A stretch of DNA of 33,899 nucleotides from assembly GCA_012728115.1 (NCBI GenBank), contig JAAYFS010000029.1, forward strand, positions 1 through 33,899, given 5' to 3'. The DNA is from Bacillota bacterium (GTDB lineage Bacteria; Bacillota; Limnochordia; Darwinibacteriales; JAAYFS01). The translations under genes were made by a program, and so were the position numbers. The notes under the pieces were generated by a model. That model saw only the letters and a program-made list of their open reading frames with translations, made no database searches and had not been told where the DNA came from. Shown here piece after piece: positions 19,380-31,300 of the stretch. Each line of letters opens with the position of its first letter. Positions within the stretch are counted from its first letter, which is position 1.

Positions 19380-19517
19380 ATGCCTTACTATAGCTTTCGA
19401 GAAATTTGGACACCCTTAAGGTTATTTGGGGTCAGGGTGTTCAGAGAAGTAAGTGAAAGAACTATTTGGGTCAAGGTACGTGGTCGTAGACGTAGAAGGT
19501 TTTATAGAGGGCGCTAA
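19380..19517 (+). CDS. Candidate 45-residue Arg-rich peptide
   Basis: ATG 19380 follows a GGGGGGGAAGGG purine run and opens a 45-codon frame. A GTG at 19350 in the same frame would give 55 residues, with LGGEG just before the Met. The peptide is aromatic and strongly basic: PYYSFREIWTPLRLFG, then a half-repeat LFGVRV / IWVKVR, ending RGRRRRRFYRGR. There is no signal peptide or membrane helix. A GC-rich hairpin with a T-run overlaps its stop, which supports a real transcript end. It lies between tyrS and the C39 exporter, so it may be an exported or nucleic-acid binding peptide. No family is recognised, and it could be a chance frame. Confidence 0.45.
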   Translation: MPYYSFREIWTPLRLFGVRVFREVSERTIWVKVRGRRRRRFYRGR

Positions 19518-19895: not shown

Positions 19896-19924
19896 TTGAC
19901 AATAAATCATTTTAGTGGTATTAT
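19896..19924 (+). promoter_or_regulatory. Sigma-A type promoter of the C39 exporter operon
   Basis: TTGACA (19896-19901), a 17-base spacer, TATTAT (19919-19924). Both boxes are the same as in the PerR-like gene promoter. AGGAG follows at 19944-19948. Confidence 0.82.
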
Positions 19925-19975: not shown

Positions 19976-22123
19976 GTGAAACAACGTGATATCACCGATT
20001 GCGGTGCCGCATGCCTAGCAACGATATGCAAACAGCATGGATTGGGCTTATCGGTCGCGAAGATCAGGGAGATAGCGGGAACAGATAAACATGGGACAAA
20101 CGCTTATGGACTGATCAAAGCTGCCGAGAAACTAGGTTTTACTGCAAAAGGGGTTCGAGGGGACCGGGATGCTTTATTTAGTAAATTCCCTTTACCTGCA
20201 ATAGCCCACGTTATCGTTGATGGCTCGCTTTTTCATTATGTGGTTATTCATAAAATCGCAAAAAAGAAGATCGTGATCGCTGATCCTGCGAAAGGTATTG
20301 TAGCTCTTTCACCAGAGGATTTCCTTAAACAATGGACTGGAATACTGATTTTGCTAGTGCCTAATGCACAGTTTAAACGGGGCGACCAAACACAAGGAAT
20401 GTTTCAGCGATTTTTTGGATTATTACTGCCACAACGAAACTTGATTGTCAGTATCTTTTTGGCCTCCTTAATGTACACTTTGCTTGGTATTCTAGGTGCG
20501 TTCTATTTCAAATTCTTAATGGATGAGATTCTCACCTATCAGTTATTTAAAACTCTGCATATGGTTTCAATCGGAATCATTTTACTGAATATTTTTAAAA
20601 TCATTCTTGGAGCTTTTCGTTCACATCTATTACTTTACCTTAGTCAGAAATTAGACATTGCCTTAGTGCTTGGCTATTTCAACCATGTATTGCAATTGCC
20701 GATGAATTTCTTTACCAACCGTAAAGTCGGTGAGGTTATTTCGCGTTTGATGGATGCCAGTAAGGTACGAGAAGCGATATCGGGAGCAACCTTAACCATA
20801 ATGATCGACACTTTGATGGTTATTGCCGCTGGAGTCATCCTGTGCATGCAAAACAGCGTTCTTTTTGGAATATCGTTGGCGATAGTAGTAATCTATGGTT
20901 TGGTCGTACTTGGTTTTAATATACCGATCCGCAATATTAATCAAGAACAGATGGAAAACAATGCGCAATTAACGTCCTATCTTGTGGAGAGTTTAAGTGG
21001 AATAGAAACACTAAAAAGTTTCAATGCTGAGAGCAGAGCTAGTTTTGAAACGGAAAAAAGGTTCATTAAACTTATTAGAAGTGTCTTCAAAGGAGGTTGG
21101 TTGGCAAACCTAAGTAGCTCATTGACAAGTTTTGTTGCATCGCTTGGTGGGATAGTAATTCTTTGGGTTGGCAGCTTCCTGGTCCTAAATGGCGCAATCA
21201 CCCTCGGTCAATTAATCACGTTTAATGCTTTGCTCGCCTATTTTCTTGATCCAGTTAAGAACTTGATTAACTTACAGCCAATGATGCATACTGCTATCGT
21301 AGCTTCGGATCGACTAGGCGAGATCTTGGATCTGGAGTCGGAAAAACTCGAAGATGAGGATAGGAAGGTGCGTTTAAAGGCACTGAGTGGCAAAATTGAA
21401 ATAAAAGACTTAGATTTTCGTTACGGAATGCGTCAGCCAGTGCTACAAGGTATTAACCTTGAAATAAACCCTGGGGAGACAGTTGCCTTGGTTGGTGAAA
21501 GCGGGTCGGGGAAGACCACACTAGCAAAGCTGATTCTTAATTTTTTCCCATTTGAAAAAGGTGAAATCATTCTTGATGGCTACCACATTCAAGATTTAAA
21601 CAAAGAGTTTTTGCGCGACCAGATCGGTTATATTTCTCAGGATATATTCTTGTTCAATGGGACAATTCTTGAGAATCTGTGTTTGGGGCTTGAAGGTATT
21701 GATTTCGAAAAAGTGATCTCGGTAGCTAAGGCGGTTGGGGCTCATGAATTTATTACTAAACTACCATTTCGGTATCAGACGATGATTGCTGAAAATGGAG
21801 TTAATCTTTCGGGAGGTCAGAGACAACTTCTCGGAATAACTCGAGCATTGTTGAAGGAACCAGATATCTTGGTTCTGGATGAAGCTACTAGCAATCTAGA
21901 TTCATTTTCGGAAAGAGCAGTTCAGAAAGCGTTGCAGGATTTTCGCAGAAAAGGAACCACAATTATTATTGCGCATCGTTTAAGCACTGTCAGAAAGTGT
22001 GACAAGATCTTTGTTCTAGCTAATGGTAGAATTATTGAAACTGGTTCGCATGAGCAGCTCTTATCTAGAAAAGGTCATTATTATCAATTATTTATGCAAC
22101 AGTACTTGGTGGAAGGAAGGTGA
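19976..22123 (+). CDS. C39-peptidase ABC transporter (bacteriocin processing and export)
   Basis: Cuts the leader of double-glycine peptides and exports the cores across the membrane. The 715-residue protein has an N-terminal C39 peptidase (Cys9 in TDCGAACLA, His87 in FHYVV, Asp103 in IADPAKG), six membrane helices (about 150-440) and an ATPase domain with Walker A GESGSGKT (about 505), LSGGQRQL, Walker B DILVLDEATSNLD and IIAHRLSTV. The GTG at 19976 is the only standard in-frame start, but it has no SD. The in-frame codons just upstream read RKYYCV, a sequence family members usually have inside their N-terminus, so the real start may lie upstream (see findings). HlyD-like and TolC-like genes follow in one operon. 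Likely substrates are the peptides encoded at 30519-31015. Confidence 0.92.
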   Translation: MKQRDITDCGAACLATICKQHGLGLSVAKIREIAGTDKHGTNAYGLIKAAEKLGFTAKGVRGDRDALFSKFPLPAIAHVIVDGSLFHYVVIHKIAKKKIVIADPAKGIVALSPEDFLKQWTGILILLVPNAQFKRGDQTQGMFQRFFGLLLPQRNLIVSIFLASLMYTLLGILGAFYFKFLMDEILTYQLFKTLHMVSIGIILLNIFKIILGAFRSHLLLYLSQKLDIALVLGYFNHVLQLPMNFFTNRKVGEVISRLMDASKVREAISGATLTIMIDTLMVIAAGVILCMQNSVLFGISLAIVVIYGLVVLGFNIPIRNINQEQMENNAQLTSYLVESLSGIETLKSFNAESRASFETEKRFIKLIRSVFKGGWLANLSSSLTSFVASLGGIVILWVGSFLVLNGAITLGQLITFNALLAYFLDPVKNLINLQPMMHTAIVASDRLGEILDLESEKLEDEDRKVRLKALSGKIEIKDLDFRYGMRQPVLQGINLEINPGETVALVGESGSGKTTLAKLILNFFPFEKGEIILDGYHIQDLNKEFLRDQIGYISQDIFLFNGTILENLCLGLEGIDFEKVISVAKAVGAHEFITKLPFRYQTMIAENGVNLSGGQRQLLGITRALLKEPDILVLDEATSNLDSFSERAVQKALQDFRRKGTTIIIAHRLSTVRKCDKIFVLANGRIIETGSHEQLLSRKGHYYQLFMQQYLVEGR

Positions 22124-23281
22124 TTGTTGATCAAAGCTTATATCATTGACCTGTCACAGTTAAGCGATAGTCGCGAAATAATGGAGGCAAAACCTCATCC
22201 GTTTCTGGGTTGGTTTATTCTTATTTTATTGTTCATTATTGGAATCGGATTAGCATGGAGCTACTTTGCTGTTATTGATGAATATGTGAAAGCTACTGGA
22301 ATCGTAAGGCCTGCTGAGGGTCGAAGAATAATAATTAATGAGATATCAGGCAAGGTGGAAGAAGTATTTTTCCATTCGGGAATGAAGGTAGCAGCTGGAG
22401 ATGTTTTATATACTTTAGATCTGTCTTCTTTGGTTCATGAGTTTGAAGCAAAAAAGGATCAGCTAAAACAACTTCAACAAGAGCATGCGAATTTAGAAAC
22501 GCTTAAGCGAAGTGTTTTTGAAGGAAGGAACTATTTCATTGATTCAAACCCCGAACAAGTACGTTTCCAAACATACCAAACTACTCAAGATAGATTAGAA
22601 TCTATTTATAATGAAAGTCTGCAACTGTGGCAACGCTTAGAAAGACTATTTCAAACAGGAGCGGTAGCCAAATATGAAGTGGATGAAGTACGAAAACAGG
22701 TAGAAAGAGCTAAACATGAGTTAGAGAAATATCGTCTAGATTCGTTGGTGCAAATAGATGATGCATTAATAAATAAGCGGATGCAAATTGAACAATATGA
22801 ACGTGAACTTAAGCTAGTTGAATTAAGATTGCAGGCTAAAGAAATTGTCTCCCCGATCGATGGGATAATTAATCCAATAAAAGAGCTTTATAGCGGAGAT
22901 ATTTTAGCTAGTGGTGTAGAAATTGCAACAATCGTACCAGAACAGGCGAGCCAGTTCGTTATTGAGTTAATGGTTCCTAATCATGAGATAGCAAAGATCA
23001 ATTTAGGACAGGAAATCTCACTTCGCTTTTTGGGCTTGCCATTTAGGGAATATGGCGGCTTAAGAGGAACCGTTGAGACGATAGCGACAGATGCCCAATT
23101 TGATCCAGTCTCGGGAATCAGTTATTACTTGGTCGAGGCAAAAATGGAGGCAAATTTTCCAGAAAATTCAGACGGGATACACCATTATTTGCGTAGCGGA
23201 ATGATCTGTGAGGGATATATCATTACCAGTTCCAAGAAATTATTGCATTGGCTACTTGGCAAACTTGATTTTTTAAACTAA
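22124..23281 (+). CDS. HlyD-family membrane fusion (adaptor) protein
   Basis: Adaptor that links the ABC exporter to the outer component. The 385-residue protein has a short cytoplasmic N-terminus, one membrane helix at about 28-48 (FLGWFILILLFIIGIGLAWS), a lipoyl-like half (VRPAEGRRIIINEISGKV, and later EIVSPIDGIINPI at about 240), a coiled-coil hairpin (about 105-235) and a C-terminal beta-barrel domain with FLGLPFREYGGLRGTV near 305. It starts one base after the transporter stop. TTG 22124 is used; TTG 22127 is equally possible behind GGAAGG. The layout matches HlyD/LcnD adaptors of bacteriocin exporters. Confidence 0.9.
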   Translation: MLIKAYIIDLSQLSDSREIMEAKPHPFLGWFILILLFIIGIGLAWSYFAVIDEYVKATGIVRPAEGRRIIINEISGKVEEVFFHSGMKVAAGDVLYTLDLSSLVHEFEAKKDQLKQLQQEHANLETLKRSVFEGRNYFIDSNPEQVRFQTYQTTQDRLESIYNESLQLWQRLERLFQTGAVAKYEVDEVRKQVERAKHELEKYRLDSLVQIDDALINKRMQIEQYERELKLVELRLQAKEIVSPIDGIINPIKELYSGDILASGVEIATIVPEQASQFVIELMVPNHEIAKINLGQEISLRFLGLPFREYGGLRGTVETIATDAQFDPVSGISYYLVEAKMEANFPENSDGIHHYLRSGMICEGYIITSSKKLLHWLLGKLDFLN

Positions 23282-23296
23282 GGGTGGATGTACTTG

Positions 23297-24340
23297 ATGA
23301 GAATTTCGAATCTTTTTTCGACGCTGACGCTATGTTTTCTTTTTCTATTCCCTCAAACGGTTAATGCTCATAACAGATTTGATCTCGAAACGCTTTATCA
23401 ACAAGCGCTCCTTAGGAATCGTCAGTACCAAAGTGCGAAAATTGAATTTGAGATCAAAAGGCTTCAGTTAATCCAAACAGAGTTCGAACATGAACGTCAG
23501 GGGGCAATTATTGCCTTAAGGCGAGCGGAAAGTTCTTTTTTAACTGCTGAAAGAGAGTTGGAGATGATTGCGAAAGACTTAAGACTTATGGTTGAATCGC
23601 AGTACTATTCTTATCTAAACCTGCTTGAACAGATCGCCATAGTTGAAAAAGAGATTGCTTTATTAACCGAGGAGGTTCAAATAGCGGAGGCGAGTTTCCG
23701 TGAAGGGAAACTCACTCAATATGATTTAGACTTACTGAGACAGGAGTTAGGAGTTCTTGAGTTTCAACTTCAATCTCTAAATCGTAAAGTGGAATCAGCA
23801 AAAATACAGATTTTGGTTGTGGTTGGAGTGCCTTTAAATACGGAGTTTGAGTTAGAATCCGCATTTGGGCAGATAAAACTTCAGCCAATAGAAATCGAAT
23901 TTGAAATAGCCACAATAATTAGGTTGCTAGAAGAAAACAATGTCGAGCTTTTACGACTTCAAGATGAACTACAGATCGCTGAACTTGAGCAGAGTGTTGC
24001 TGACTTTTCCTCCCCAGTTATTAAAGAAATCAAGTTTCTTCAAAATCAGGTATTCCAACTTCAGTATCAAAAAACTCTCGATGAACTAGTATTACATACT
24101 CTCGAAATAATAGAACACTTGAGGAGTCTTGAAGAACAGTACGAACTTACTAAAAGAAGGATTAAGAGTGCTGAGGAACATAAACGATTGCTTGAGGCAA
24201 AATGGCGAGAGGGTCTGATAATCCATACGGCTGTATTAAGGGCGGAATTAGATTTAAAAAAGCTAAATTTCGAGTTAAGGCAAATCGCAAACGAGTATCG
24301 GTTGGCAATCTTGACTCTCTGTAAGTTCGGTTTGCTTTAA
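23297..24340 (+). CDS. TolC-like protein lacking beta-barrel segments
   Basis: Third component of the exporter operon. The precursor of 347 residues has a signal peptide (MRISNLFSTLTLCFLFLF, ending VNA) and then is almost entirely helical. Two TolC-type repeats are visible: DLETLYQQALLRNRQYQSA to ILVVVGVPLN, and IIRLLEENNVELLRL to the C-terminus, each with the EG/T turn (FREGKLTQYDLDLL, WREGLIIHTAVLR). In TolC, each repeat has a beta-hairpin of about 40-60 residues after the first helix; here the helix runs on without it. This explains the short length against the usual 420-480. ATG 23297 is chosen over ATG 23288 because AGGGTGG ends right before the latter and 9 bases before the former. A periplasm- or wall-spanning tube without an outer-membrane barrel is inferred. 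Confidence 0.78.
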   Translation: MRISNLFSTLTLCFLFLFPQTVNAHNRFDLETLYQQALLRNRQYQSAKIEFEIKRLQLIQTEFEHERQGAIIALRRAESSFLTAERELEMIAKDLRLMVESQYYSYLNLLEQIAIVEKEIALLTEEVQIAEASFREGKLTQYDLDLLRQELGVLEFQLQSLNRKVESAKIQILVVVGVPLNTEFELESAFGQIKLQPIEIEFEIATIIRLLEENNVELLRLQDELQIAELEQSVADFSSPVIKEIKFLQNQVFQLQYQKTLDELVLHTLEIIEHLRSLEEQYELTKRRIKSAEEHKRLLEAKWREGLIIHTAVLRAELDLKKLNFELRQIANEYRLAILTLCKFGLL

Positions 24341-24403
24341 AGGAACAAAGCAATATTTCTCGAAGATAGTAGTGCTAGTCGATTGTACGGGTAGGTGAGC
24401 ATG

Positions 24404-25528
24404 ATGAAGTACAAGATCGTAGATCTATTTGCTGGTATCGGCGGTATTCGCAAAGGGTTTGAATTAACTGGCCGATTTGAGAATGTAATGGCTGCAGAAA
24501 TTGATAAATATGCTTGTCAGACCTATCAACATTTGTTTGATGAGGATCCATATAACGATGTTACCAGTGAGAATTTTAAGCAACGCTTGGAATTAATTAA
24601 CTACGATATACTTTTAGCTGGATTTCCGTGCCAGGCTTTTAGTATTGCGGGAAAGAAGGAGGGTTTTCGCGATCGAACTCGTGGGACCTTATTCTTTGAT
24701 ATAGCTGATATTCTCGAACGGACTAGACCGAGAGCATTCCTGTTGGAGAATGTCGAAGGGTTAGTACGCCATAAGCGAGGACAAACGTTTAGGATAATCT
24801 TAGAGACATTAGTGCAAGAGTTGGACTATGCTGTTGTCGGTGTTTCCGAATGTAATGGGGAATTAGAATATGAACCAAACGAATTCTTAGCCAATTCCCG
24901 ATTTTTTGGCATTCCTCATAATAGACCGAGAGTATATATCATCGGCTTTGATCGCAAAGCATATGCTAATTCATTAATAGATTTTGGTGACCTGCGGATT
25001 CCGAAGATAACCAAGAAGAAACCTATTTACAACGATATTACTGATCTATTAGATTTTGGGGCAGCTCCAGAATTCTATTTATCACAAGGATACCTAGATA
25101 CTCTAAAGAAACATAAAGAACGACATCAAAATAAAGGGAATGGGTATGGCTATATTGTGATAAACGATCCGAATGATCCCTCTCCATATTCTAACGCGAT
25201 TTTAGCAACGGGAGGTTCTGGTAAGGAACGAAATTTGGTTTTTGATCCCCAACCAGGTATCGCAGGGTTGAGTGTTAAGGGCAAGAAAAGTCCATTAAAT
25301 AACGAGGGGATTCGGTTAATGACTCCTGTTGAATGGGGAAAACTGCAAGGATTTATTAATTATGCTTTTATTGAAGATGGAGTAGATACGTTTTCTTTCC
25401 CAAAAATGGTTAGTAAAGCGCAGCAATATAAACAATTTGGTAATTCGGTAACTATCCCAGTGATTGAGGAAATGGCAGAATTTATGCTCAATATACTCGA
25501 TTCGGCTGGTTCAGGATCTCAAGCATAA
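24404..25528 (+). CDS. Type II DNA cytosine-5 methyltransferase (probably CCGG-specific)
   Basis: Modifies cytosine in the recognition site of the adjacent restriction enzyme. The 374-residue protein has the m5C motifs in order: I DLFAGIGGIRKGFE (7-20), IV GFPCQAFS with catalytic Cys76 (73-80), VI LENVEGL (114-120), VIII NRPRVYIIGF (about 178-187), and X GNSVTIPVIEEMAEF near the C-terminus. The target recognition region is about 200-300. ATG 24404 has AGGTGA 5 bases ahead; in-frame ATG 24401 and GTG 24395 are less well placed. It lies 63 bases after the TolC-like gene with no visible terminator, so read-through from the exporter promoter is possible. The CCGG specificity is inferred from the neighbour. 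Confidence 0.92.
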   Translation: MKYKIVDLFAGIGGIRKGFELTGRFENVMAAEIDKYACQTYQHLFDEDPYNDVTSENFKQRLELINYDILLAGFPCQAFSIAGKKEGFRDRTRGTLFFDIADILERTRPRAFLLENVEGLVRHKRGQTFRIILETLVQELDYAVVGVSECNGELEYEPNEFLANSRFFGIPHNRPRVYIIGFDRKAYANSLIDFGDLRIPKITKKKPIYNDITDLLDFGAAPEFYLSQGYLDTLKKHKERHQNKGNGYGYIVINDPNDPSPYSNAILATGGSGKERNLVFDPQPGIAGLSVKGKKSPLNNEGIRLMTPVEWGKLQGFINYAFIEDGVDTFSFPKMVSKAQQYKQFGNSVTIPVIEEMAEFMLNILDSAGSGSQA

Positions 25529-25545
25529 TAGAGAGGAAGAAAGAC

Positions 25546-26619
25546 TTGTTAACGGGCAATAAGGGTGAATGGAGTGAACTTTACACTTTCCTAAAAATCT
25601 TAGCAGATGGAAGATTTCATGCAGCTGATCAAGATCTAAACGAGATCAACTCCCTGTCTTACCCTGTGCTTGCGGTTATTAGAACTGAGGGGGAAACTAC
25701 AAGAGAATATCGCCGTAATTCAGATTATGTTTCGATTGTCGTAAATCGTGAAGAGATTGCCAGAATACCGCTGGAACGTGTTCAAAGGAAGGCTCAATTA
25801 CTTTTTGAGAAGATAAAAGCCAGTAAAGCAACTTTCACTGTTCCAGAAATCAGTTTATTTTTGGCAGATCTTTTTATTGAAAAGCTGAAAGCAAAATCTG
25901 AGGACAAAGGCGATATAAAAGTTATTATTCATGATGCTTATACTGGGCAGCAATCAATGTTTGACTTTAGCATTAAATCGGAACTAGGCAGAGCCCCAAC
26001 GCTTTTTAATTCATCGGGTGCAACTAATTTTATTTTCTCAATCAGAAATATAAACGACGAATTACTTGGTGAGGTAAATGCGCTTAACCCTAATAGGGGA
26101 AAGATCCGCGCAAAGTTACTTAAACTTCACGAACTTGGTTGTGAACTTAATTTTCAAGGGGTTAGTGATCGTACCTTTAACTGTAATTTGCAGCTGATCG
26201 ATAGTTTTCTCCCCGAAATCCTTAGTCACATCGTGTACTACTACTATAGCGGTAATGGATCAAGTATGCAGAAACTTTTGGAGTTATTAAATGAACGGAA
26301 TCCCTTAGAATATGATCTCGGAATTTCCCATCCATTTTATGAATACAAATTAAAGGCTTTTCTCACCGATGTGGCACTCGGAATGATGCCAGGAAGCCTT
26401 TGGGATGGAAGATATGACGCTACGGGTGGATATTTAATTGTTAGGGATGATGGGGAAATAGTCTGTTATCACAATTATAATCGAAACGAATTTCAAGATT
26501 ACCTAATTGCGAGGACGAAACTAGAGACTCCTAGTAGCTCCAAATACGATTTTGGATATGTGTATAAGGAGAATAATAGCTACTATATTAAACTCAATTT
26601 ACAAATCAGGTTTATGTAA
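25546..26619 (+). CDS. HpaII-family type II restriction endonuclease
   Basis: Cuts unmodified DNA at the methyltransferase's site. The 357-residue protein begins LTGNKGEWSELYTFLKILAD and has a length close to HpaII (358); GNKGEWSELYtFLK, the later FNSSGATNFIFSI and GMMPGSLWDGRYDATGGYLIV match my memory of the HpaII family (CCGG). I could not run a search. The TTG start at 25546 follows GAGGAAG, 17 bases after the methyltransferase stop on the same strand, the usual M-R order with no control protein. The near absence of CCGG in this window agrees with the specificity. Confidence 0.78.
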   Translation: MLTGNKGEWSELYTFLKILADGRFHAADQDLNEINSLSYPVLAVIRTEGETTREYRRNSDYVSIVVNREEIARIPLERVQRKAQLLFEKIKASKATFTVPEISLFLADLFIEKLKAKSEDKGDIKVIIHDAYTGQQSMFDFSIKSELGRAPTLFNSSGATNFIFSIRNINDELLGEVNALNPNRGKIRAKLLKLHELGCELNFQGVSDRTFNCNLQLIDSFLPEILSHIVYYYYSGNGSSMQKLLELLNERNPLEYDLGISHPFYEYKLKAFLTDVALGMMPGSLWDGRYDATGGYLIVRDDGEIVCYHNYNRNEFQDYLIARTKLETPSSSKYDFGYVYKENNSYYIKLNLQIRFM

Positions 26620-29857: not shown

Positions 29858-30319
29858 GTGGCTTTTACCTTTGAAGCTGCTAATGTTGATAACTTGCTGG
29901 AAGCTGCTGATGTGGAAATCTCGGTTGATGAAGCAGCCATATTTTCGGAGTCGAATTGGTTAGGGCAACCTTTAGCGGGAAGCGCCCCGATTACTGTAAC
30001 CAATTTGGGTTCGGTTAATGTGGATGTCTATTTGACCGCAGACTGGCGCGGAGCAGTCGGTACAAATATTCGTATGGCAACAATTTTGGCCAATCGTTTA
30101 CATGCATTAGTAGAAGTAGGTGCGGAACAGCCTTATGACGATACTTTTGTGAATTTAGTTGATGTATTGATAATTGAAGACTTACCTTTTGATAATGATA
30201 ATAGCCAAGATGTAGCGATAACACTCTCTTTAGAGGCTGGTGCGGAACTAACGAATATTCTACAAGATGTCGGTGTCGAATTTGATCTAATCTTTGTCGC
30301 CTTTGCGGAAGCAGTATAG
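29858..30319 (+). CDS. Acidic beta-rich protein of unknown function
   Basis: I do not recognise this 153-residue protein. GTG 29858 has AGGAGGG 5 bases ahead. It is strongly acidic, lacks Cys, and alternates short beta-like segments (SAPITVTNLGSVNVDVYLTA, then VDVLIIEDLPFDNDNSQDV, later VEFDLIFVAFAEAV). The phrase ITVTNLGSVNVDVYL recalls beta-sandwich surface proteins such as the camelysin/TasA type, but there is no signal peptide, so the resemblance is weak. A weak terminator follows. It sits just upstream of the bacteriocin-like genes and may or may not belong with them. Confidence 0.65.
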   Translation: MAFTFEAANVDNLLEAADVEISVDEAAIFSESNWLGQPLAGSAPITVTNLGSVNVDVYLTADWRGAVGTNIRMATILANRLHALVEVGAEQPYDDTFVNLVDVLIIEDLPFDNDNSQDVAITLSLEAGAELTNILQDVGVEFDLIFVAFAEAV

Positions 30320-30332
30320 CAGAATAAGCGTA

Positions 30333-30369
30333 GCCTTCAGGTAAAATGCCTGAGGGCATTTCCGTTTAT
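30333..30369 (+). terminator. Weak terminator after the acidic protein gene
   Basis: GCCTTCAGG (30333-30341) pairs with CCTGAGGGC (30349-30357, one G-T), then ATTTCCGTTT. Good stem, poor T-run. Confidence 0.55.
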
Positions 30370-30488: not shown

Positions 30489-30518
30489 ATAAATAGAGAG
30501 AAAAAAGGGGGTGAACTT

Positions 30519-30752
30519 ATGAACGAACTCTATTTCGAGCGTAGCGCATTTACCGAAATGAGTACTTATGAATTGTTGGAAGTTAACGGAGGTAGCTTGT
30601 TTCAAACTATTTGTAAATGCGTAGCAGTCATAGGAATCGGAGGAGCGATCAGTATTGGATTGGTGCCAATAATAGGTACATTAGCGGCAACTGTTGTAGG
30701 CGGCGCTGCTGGAATAGCGGTCGAATATTTGTGGGATTCCATTTTTGAGTAG
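30519..30752 (+). CDS. Double-glycine leader peptide, bacteriocin-like precursor 1
   Basis: A 77-residue precursor. The leader ends TYELLEVNGG (residue 25), the ELxxVxGG pattern recognised by C39 peptidases. The 52-residue core is hydrophobic and Gly-rich (VIGIGGAISIGLVPIIG, then LAATVVGGAAGIAVEYLW) with GxxxG-like spacing, as in class IIb two-peptide bacteriocins. It carries a Cys-Lys-Cys near the core start. ATG has a strong AAGGGGGTGA site. The next gene encodes a second such precursor 26 bases on. The C39 exporter at 19976 is the likely processing partner. Antimicrobial activity is inferred. Confidence 0.83.
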   Translation: MNELYFERSAFTEMSTYELLEVNGGSLFQTICKCVAVIGIGGAISIGLVPIIGTLAATVVGGAAGIAVEYLWDSIFE

Positions 30753-30778
30753 AAAAGACTTGGTTGGAGGTGCGATAT

Positions 30779-31015
30779 ATGGAGTTAGTTTACGAAAGTT
30801 CAAATCTAATCAGTCTGAGCGAGAGTGAGTTAGAAAAAATTGAAGGTGGAGGTTTGCTTTCAGCGGTTGCGGGTACTATAGCAGGAGCCTTAGTTGGATT
30901 CCATGTAGGGGTGGTGGCTGCCGTTATTTCGGGTGATCCTTACGATCTCTTAGCTGGAACAATTGCGGGATTATCCGTAGGACTCTTATACGGAGTAAGT
31001 GCTCCTCTACCGTAA
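30779..31015 (+). CDS. Double-glycine leader peptide, bacteriocin-like precursor 2
   Basis: A 78-residue precursor. The leader ends LSESELEKIEGG (residue 24; a third Gly follows), a textbook C39 cleavage site. The 54-residue core is hydrophobic with several small-residue motifs (AVAGTIAGALVGFHVGVVAA, then LLAGTIAGLSVGLLYG), again like one half of a two-peptide bacteriocin. ATG 30779 follows GGAGGTG; a TTG at 30764 is inside that region and is not used. It has no Cys, unlike precursor 1, so the two cores differ and may act as complementary helices in a membrane. Confidence 0.84.
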   Translation: MELVYESSNLISLSESELEKIEGGGLLSAVAGTIAGALVGFHVGVVAAVISGDPYDLLAGTIAGLSVGLLYGVSAPLP

Positions 31016-31030
31016 AGGAGTGAGTAAAAA

Positions 31031-31300
31031 ATGCAATCTCTTTTTCACAAGGAACAAGAGATTTTTTTACGAACTTGGAAGAGGAAGCGCAAGGATGGTC
31101 ATTTTAGATACTCCTTTAAGATGTTCTTGATGTTAATGGGAATAGCTTTCGTAGTGTGTCTTTACAAACGCTTCATCCAGAAAGACTTGCAGAACTATGA
31201 GCTCCTTTGGTATTTCTTAATCTGTGTCGCTATTCCAAACCTCTTCTGGTTCATTAACGAGTGGCGCTTTGCTCGATTGCGGTCAAAGTTCAATAAATAA
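31031..31300 (+). CDS. Small two-helix membrane protein, possible immunity protein
   Basis: An 89-residue basic membrane protein with two hydrophobic helices (about 28-46, SFKMFLMLMGIAFVVCLY, and about 58-75, LLWYFLICVAIPNLFWFI) and a charged N-terminus (RTWKRKRKDGHFRY). AAAGGAG is well placed before ATG 31031, 15 bases after the second precursor, so it is in the same unit. Small basic membrane proteins at this position are often bacteriocin immunity proteins. No family is recognised. Confidence 0.68.
   Translation: MQSLFHKEQEIFLRTWKRKRKDGHFRYSFKMFLMLMGIAFVVCLYKRFIQKDLQNYELLWYFLICVAIPNLFWFINEWRFARLRSKFNK

Follow-up and report, generated by a model that had tools for sequence, protein, structure and literature searches.

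The nearest two-peptide system described so far in a diderm is, to our knowledge, Cdz of Caulobacter. For class II microcins, one exporter common to two microcins is known, and C39-ABC transporters (PCATs) also export pheromones. Substrates of PCATs follow the leader consensus L(-12)xxxE(-8)L(-7)xxxxGG, and leader position -4 is paired with one peptidase residue: in PCAT1, Gly135 faces Met(-4), and in LahT a larger Ile faces the smaller Val(-4) (PMC6959990). Limnochordia are diderm (PMC11456536). No report of bacteriocins of Limnochordia was found in the literature searched. If real, bacteriocins from this two-membrane Firmicute class would involve double-glycine peptides that, like microcins, have two membranes to cross.

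Here, we describe a small gene cassette of a Limnochordia genome, located at positions 30519 to 31300 of the window, by which we mean the whole analysed stretch of 33,899 nucleotides from contig JAAYFS010000029.1. The original prediction had taken the cassette for a two-peptide bacteriocin with immunity and remote C39 export. On sequence grounds alone this is still the best-supported reading, since both precursors match the bacteriocin family PF10439, one immunity-like gene is present per two precursors, the genome holds a single C39 domain, the PCAT consensus recurs in three leaders and the same exporter type lies beside double-glycine peptides in relatives. What the sequence supports are the leaders and their match to the PCAT consensus, one C39 system whose catalytic residues are intact, and the pattern of the cassette.

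Judging from how its genes are ordered and spaced and from their good ribosome-binding sites, the cassette, encoded on the plus strand, appears to be one operon of two different precursors and one gene of predicted immunity function. Precursor 1 (30519..30752; 77 aa) is preceded by the Shine-Dalgarno sequence GGGGGTG (30507..30513) and comprises a 25-aa leader, MNELYFERSAFTEMSTYELLEVNGG, and a core of 52 residues. Precursor 2 (30779..31015; 78 aa from its ATG) is preceded by GGAGGTG (30767..30773) and comprises a 24-aa leader, MELVYESSNLISLSESELEKIEGG, and a core of 54 residues; both core lengths agree with those originally proposed. The candidate immunity protein of 89 aa is encoded at 31031..31300, with AAAGGAG as Shine-Dalgarno sequence (31014-31020). 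Intergenic gaps measure 26 nt between the precursors and 15 nt between precursor 2 and the 89-aa open reading frame (ORF). Codon usage is coding-like for the precursors (+0.33 and +0.43 bits/codon) and neutral, with no coding-like bias, for the 89-aa ORF (-0.03 bits/codon). Directly upstream of the cassette (29858-30319) lies a gene with a good Shine-Dalgarno sequence and coding-like codon usage, which encodes an acidic protein of 153 aa with no family match. A terminator-like hairpin on the plus strand (30333..30357) separates this gene from the cassette; such hairpins occur across the scanned region at chance level. Rfam gave no match in the window.

Translation of the ORFs bears out the claim that leader 1 ends in ELLEVNGG and leader 2 in ELEKIEGG. 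Precursor 1 matches PF10439 (Bacteriocin_IIc) with 27.1 bits (E 4e-6), a borderline score that exactly equals the curated cut-off, and precursor 2 with 24.7 bits (E 2e-5), just under this cut-off of 27.1 bits; the matches span leader and core. Over the whole 1.95-Mb genome, only precursors 1 and 2 fell below 1e-3 (E 9e-6 and 1.3e-5, respectively), and the third match, at E 0.02, is another double-glycine peptide. The PF10439 matches to both precursors argue that the cassette is more than a product of chance. A match to the MccV model is weak (E 0.16), none of the NCBIfam class IIb models was matched over its cut-off, and PDB sequence matches for the three cassette proteins were judged to be chance. 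Homologues of the two precursors and of the 89-aa protein were not detected in searches variously of genome contigs, relatives and class genomes, plasmids and viral contigs, so conservation of the triplet gives no argument. Core homologues within larger proteins, or a genome devoid of C39 exporters, had been named as findings that would speak against the prediction; no homologues were detected and a C39 domain is present.

The C39 exporter was found where it had been placed. A C39-ABC transporter (PCAT) with an uncertain start codon is encoded at 19976..22123 (PF03412, E 1.5e-39; TIGR01193, 677 bits), followed on the same plus strand by an HlyD-type membrane fusion protein at 22124..23281 (PF13437; TIGR01843, E 1.5e-45, under its cut-off) and a short-form OEP/TolC-family protein of 350 aa at 23288..24340 (PF02321, E 1e-14). 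This set (19976-24340) ends 6.2 kb upstream of the cassette, in line with the previous estimate of about 6 kb. The restriction system said to lie in between consists of a cytosine-5 methyltransferase and an HpaII-type restriction enzyme (PF09561, E 1.7e-121) at 24395-26619. Over its full length the window PCAT has PCAT1 (4RY2) as its closest solved structure (E 9e-251), and it keeps the active-site Cys, His and Asp as well as the oxyanion Gln. Its C39 domain is the only one found by a genome-wide search; as the genome is 95.8% complete, a further C39 domain may sit on missing sequence.

Leaders and peptidase can be compared residue by residue. Precursor 1 carries Met at -12, Glu at -8, Leu at -7 and Val at -4 in front of GG. 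The three leaders of the genome all have E(-8), L(-7) and GG, with Met, Leu and Leu at -12 and Val, Ile and Val at -4. In the window PCAT, the column paired with leader position -4, located through alignment of the WTGx motif, holds Ile. The -4 residues would fit this Ile, an argument to which we give modest weight, as leaders of this kind often have a hydrophobic residue at -4.

Expression of the exporter is uncertain, since no start codon of the PCAT gene is well placed. GTG 19976 lacks a Shine-Dalgarno sequence at normal distance and the conserved frame is open upstream of it; ATG 19951, preceded by AGGAG, lies in another frame than the conserved PCAT frame. The PCAT of the related Limnochordia bacterium CSBr16_88 likewise has no standard in-frame start codon at the same place. 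The exporter genes are preceded by the best promoter-like site of the scan (TTGACA-17-TATTAT with TG before the -10 element, 11/12; 19896..19924, plus strand); the number of such sites in the scanned region is that expected by chance. A scan of the 838-bp gap in front of the exporter for a decayed double-glycine peptide gave none. An Arg-rich ORF of about 45 aa from ATG 19380 lies between tyrS and the exporter (19380-19517), with a G-rich Shine-Dalgarno sequence before it and a hairpin with a T run after it. For the short OEP protein (23288-24340), a single-sequence AF2 model shows helices and no beta strands, at low confidence; full-length OEP proteins are present elsewhere in the genome. Other short OEP proteins of the genome are encoded at L060:5644-6711 and L061:5853-6938 (three short forms in all, 350-361 aa), each directly next to a gene for a full-length OEP protein (504 and 446 aa).

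Following the two precursors, the 89-aa protein corresponds to its earlier description as a basic two-helix membrane protein. Its pI is 10.2, residues 31-49 and 57-75 are predicted by hydropathy to form hydrophobic helices, and two helices are also seen in a single-sequence AF2 model (pLDDT 76). Immunity to two-peptide bacteriocins is normally conferred by short membrane proteins of one to four helices (PMC6957408), and we consider it likely that the 89-aa protein is the immunity protein of the producer. It matched no family in Pfam or NCBIfam. Assignments as BacA (E 0.08) or LIC_13387 (E 0.035) were rejected as far under cut-off, and a PDB match at E 9e-7 was to a designed toroid (residues 17-51); no stretch passes alone, and the match was put down to chance.

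A second cassette of the same genome lies on contig C28 (14 kb, with no C39 gene). It consists of an 80-aa double-glycine precursor (L035:5514-5756) and a subsequent 62-aa membrane protein (L035:5787-5975) with one clear helix by hydropathy. The assembly is in contigs, and remote here means on another contig. Since the genome is that of a diderm and has this additional, remote cassette, the exporter is likely to serve cassettes at scattered sites. The C28 peptide is preceded by a promoter-like TTGACA-17-TAATAT with the palindrome GGGAATCGATTCCC just past it. As regards an operator shared between the cassettes, this palindrome has no match in the window.

Comparable arrangements were seen in relatives. 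In Limnochordia bacterium CSBr16_88 (SKJB01000065.1), a PCAT 69% identical to that of the window has as neighbours a double-glycine leader and a two-helix protein of 66 aa; in the exporter-side peptide gene (L030:17368-17620), leader and glycine-rich core are in different frames in the assembly. On contig JAAYPF010000096.1 of a Clostridiaceae metagenome-assembled genome (MAG), the same exporter type adjoins two double-glycine peptides. The CSBr16_88 PCAT is 87% identical to the Clostridiaceae PCAT over the C-terminal part and only 45-55% identical to PCATs from four genomes of its own family, which, together with its identity to the window PCAT and provided that the MAG is correctly binned, suggests horizontal movement of the exporter.

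We also searched 73 genomes of the class with a leader model (A3) built from six leaders, which came from the same genomes later searched and from the related Clostridiaceae MAG. Credible matches were obtained only in the window genome (G000) and CSBr16_88 (G017), the one independent match being a peptide on CSBr16_88 contig C54. There, a DUF3267 (HELIH) membrane protein is encoded after the double-glycine peptide (L059:1438-2349); a similar pairing is present at L043. Since TMcin biosynthesis includes removal of a leader by DUF3267 (PMC13252029), a processing or immunity role of the CSBr16_88 protein is worth considering. Assignment of the window cassette itself to the TMcins was rejected: no DUF3267-type protease is present at the cassette, and the leaders are of C39 type. 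A further A3 match, in G022, was discarded for lying inside a 341-residue open frame. The PF10439 matches in G004 and G007 were rejected as bacteriocins of the present kind, since the proteins have a signal-peptide-like start, a VDGE motif and no GG leader; the match in G010 looks like them. Glycine-rich proteins with a signal-peptide-like N-terminus that match PF10439 and have no GG leader are encoded in related genomes at L007, L008 and L009, with a VDGE-F motif in L007 and L008.

Both cores had been called GxxxG-rich. This holds for core 2, in which six GxxxG motifs stand against 1.6 expected from shuffles (P 0.0008), and not for core 1, with one against 1.0 (P 0.69). Core 1 does contain the Cys-Lys-Cys that had been noted, core 2 has no Cys, and the net charge of each core is -2. 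For the unmodified cores, average masses of about 5179 and 5062 Da were computed. The differences between the cores in glycine pattern and cysteines speak for two independent one-peptide bacteriocins, or a toxin and a helper peptide, encoded in one operon, with the 89-aa protein protecting against one or both of them. The C28 cassette, which pairs a single peptide with a small membrane protein, points the same way. A single immunity-like gene after two precursors, however, resembles two-peptide systems, and the weak similarity between the cores (E 0.02 in a tiny database) suits paired peptides as well as duplication; on balance we hold either of these arrangements to be doubtful.

Another reading is a mode of action like that of the Cdz system, in which glycine-zipper proteins are held on the surface of the producer and kill by contact instead of diffusing. 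A diderm host, a type I exporter, two peptides of similar size, a small membrane immunity candidate and the repeated GxxxG of core 2 would all fit (PMC5380434), and PF10439 also matches in the Caulobacter control genome (a genome-level match). Such a mode is nevertheless unlikely. Glycine and the small hydrophobic residues Ala, Val and Ile make up about 75% of Cdz cores as compared to 58% of core 1 and 56% of core 2. CdzI has three predicted helices as against two in the 89-aa protein. Core 1 has no extended zipper, and the combination that defines Cdz, an extended GxxxGxxxG with about 75% Gly, Ala, Val and Ile in both mature proteins, was not found in cores 1 and 2.

That the precursors give rise to secreted double-glycine signal peptides, i.e. 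pheromones, and not to toxins we regard as improbable. The leader type is the same as in PCAT-exported pheromones, and precursor 2 has a weak ComC match (E 0.29). Against this, PF10439 fits better than ComC, the strongly hydrophobic cores of 52-54 residues are long and look membrane-active, and no sensor kinase or regulator gene lies next to the cassette. Non-exported small membrane proteins whose leaders resemble the double-glycine type by chance, a notion prompted by the hydrophobic composition of the cores, are very improbable in view of two tandem independent PF10439 matches (E about 1e-5 genome-wide), a third double-glycine peptide in the genome and the occurrence of the same leader next to the exporter in a relative.

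In the two-peptide reading, which we prefer, the double-glycine leader of each precursor would bind to the C39 peptidase domain of this PCAT (19976-22123) and be cut after GG. The hydrophobic cores of 52 and 54 residues would then cross the ABC channel and, subsequently, HlyD and the OEP-family outer-membrane component. Once released, both cores together would attack the membranes of related bacteria, the producer being shielded by the 89-aa membrane protein. The exporter would act in trans and serve the second cassette of the genome as well. We infer processing, export, killing, joint action and immunity. Points that weigh against this reading are the lack of detected homologues, the absence of GxxxG enrichment in core 1, the acidity of both cores, the neutral codon usage of the 89-aa ORF, the badly placed start of the PCAT gene and the short form of the OEP protein. 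The two precursors probably encode secreted bacteriocin-type peptides, and there is good reason to think that separate bacteriocin-immunity cassettes are served in trans by one PCAT exporter, as far as the DNA can tell; that the two peptides act jointly has about an even chance.

The cores, for which no relatives were detected, are new; the type of system is already known. A wider proposal, which is possible and put forward tentatively, is that this diderm Firmicute carries a modular toxin set made up of a horizontally moving PCAT-HlyD exporter, scattered bacteriocin-immunity cassettes and cores unrelated to known bacteriocins. If true, such a set would bring the two-peptide bacteriocins of Gram-positive bacteria and the class II microcins of Gram-negative ones together in a single type of envelope. 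Cassettes can lie far from the exporter, and mining tied to C39 linkage would therefore miss them; the remote cassettes were recovered here by whole-genome leader and PF10439 searches.

Compared to described systems, the locus resembles class IIb bacteriocins of the lactococcin G and carnobacteriocin XY type in that two double-glycine precursors are neighbours, GxxxG occurs in both cores, a single small membrane protein is the immunity candidate and export by a PCAT is predicted. It differs from them in its diderm host, its acidic cores, the single GxxxG of core 1 and an exporter that is 6 kb away and has HlyD and OEP partners. With CdzC, CdzD and CdzI of Caulobacter crescentus it has in common two peptides of similar length, type I secretion, a diderm host, repeated GxxxG (here in core 2) and a small membrane immunity candidate (PMC5380434); it departs from them by its lower content of Gly, Ala, Val and Ile, one core without a zipper, an unlinked exporter and an immunity candidate of two instead of three helices. 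PCAT1-CtA of Clostridium thermocellum provides the closest solved exporter and the same leader consensus (PMC6959990), whereas the window PCAT has Ile for Gly at the -4-linked residue and is accompanied by extra HlyD and OEP genes. Class II microcins of the microcin V type share a GG-leader precursor, a small membrane immunity candidate, a PCAT, a membrane fusion protein, an OEP-family component and a two-membrane cell (PMC9746304). The present system is set apart from them by its Firmicute host, a PCAT closest to Clostridium PCAT1, the weak MccV match and the short OEP protein. Since Limnochordia are diderm and the genome encodes Omp85 (E 8e-59), the whole set resembles class II microcin systems in its predicted machinery and class IIb bacteriocins in its two precursors with one immunity candidate; in layout it recalls class II microcins or Cdz.
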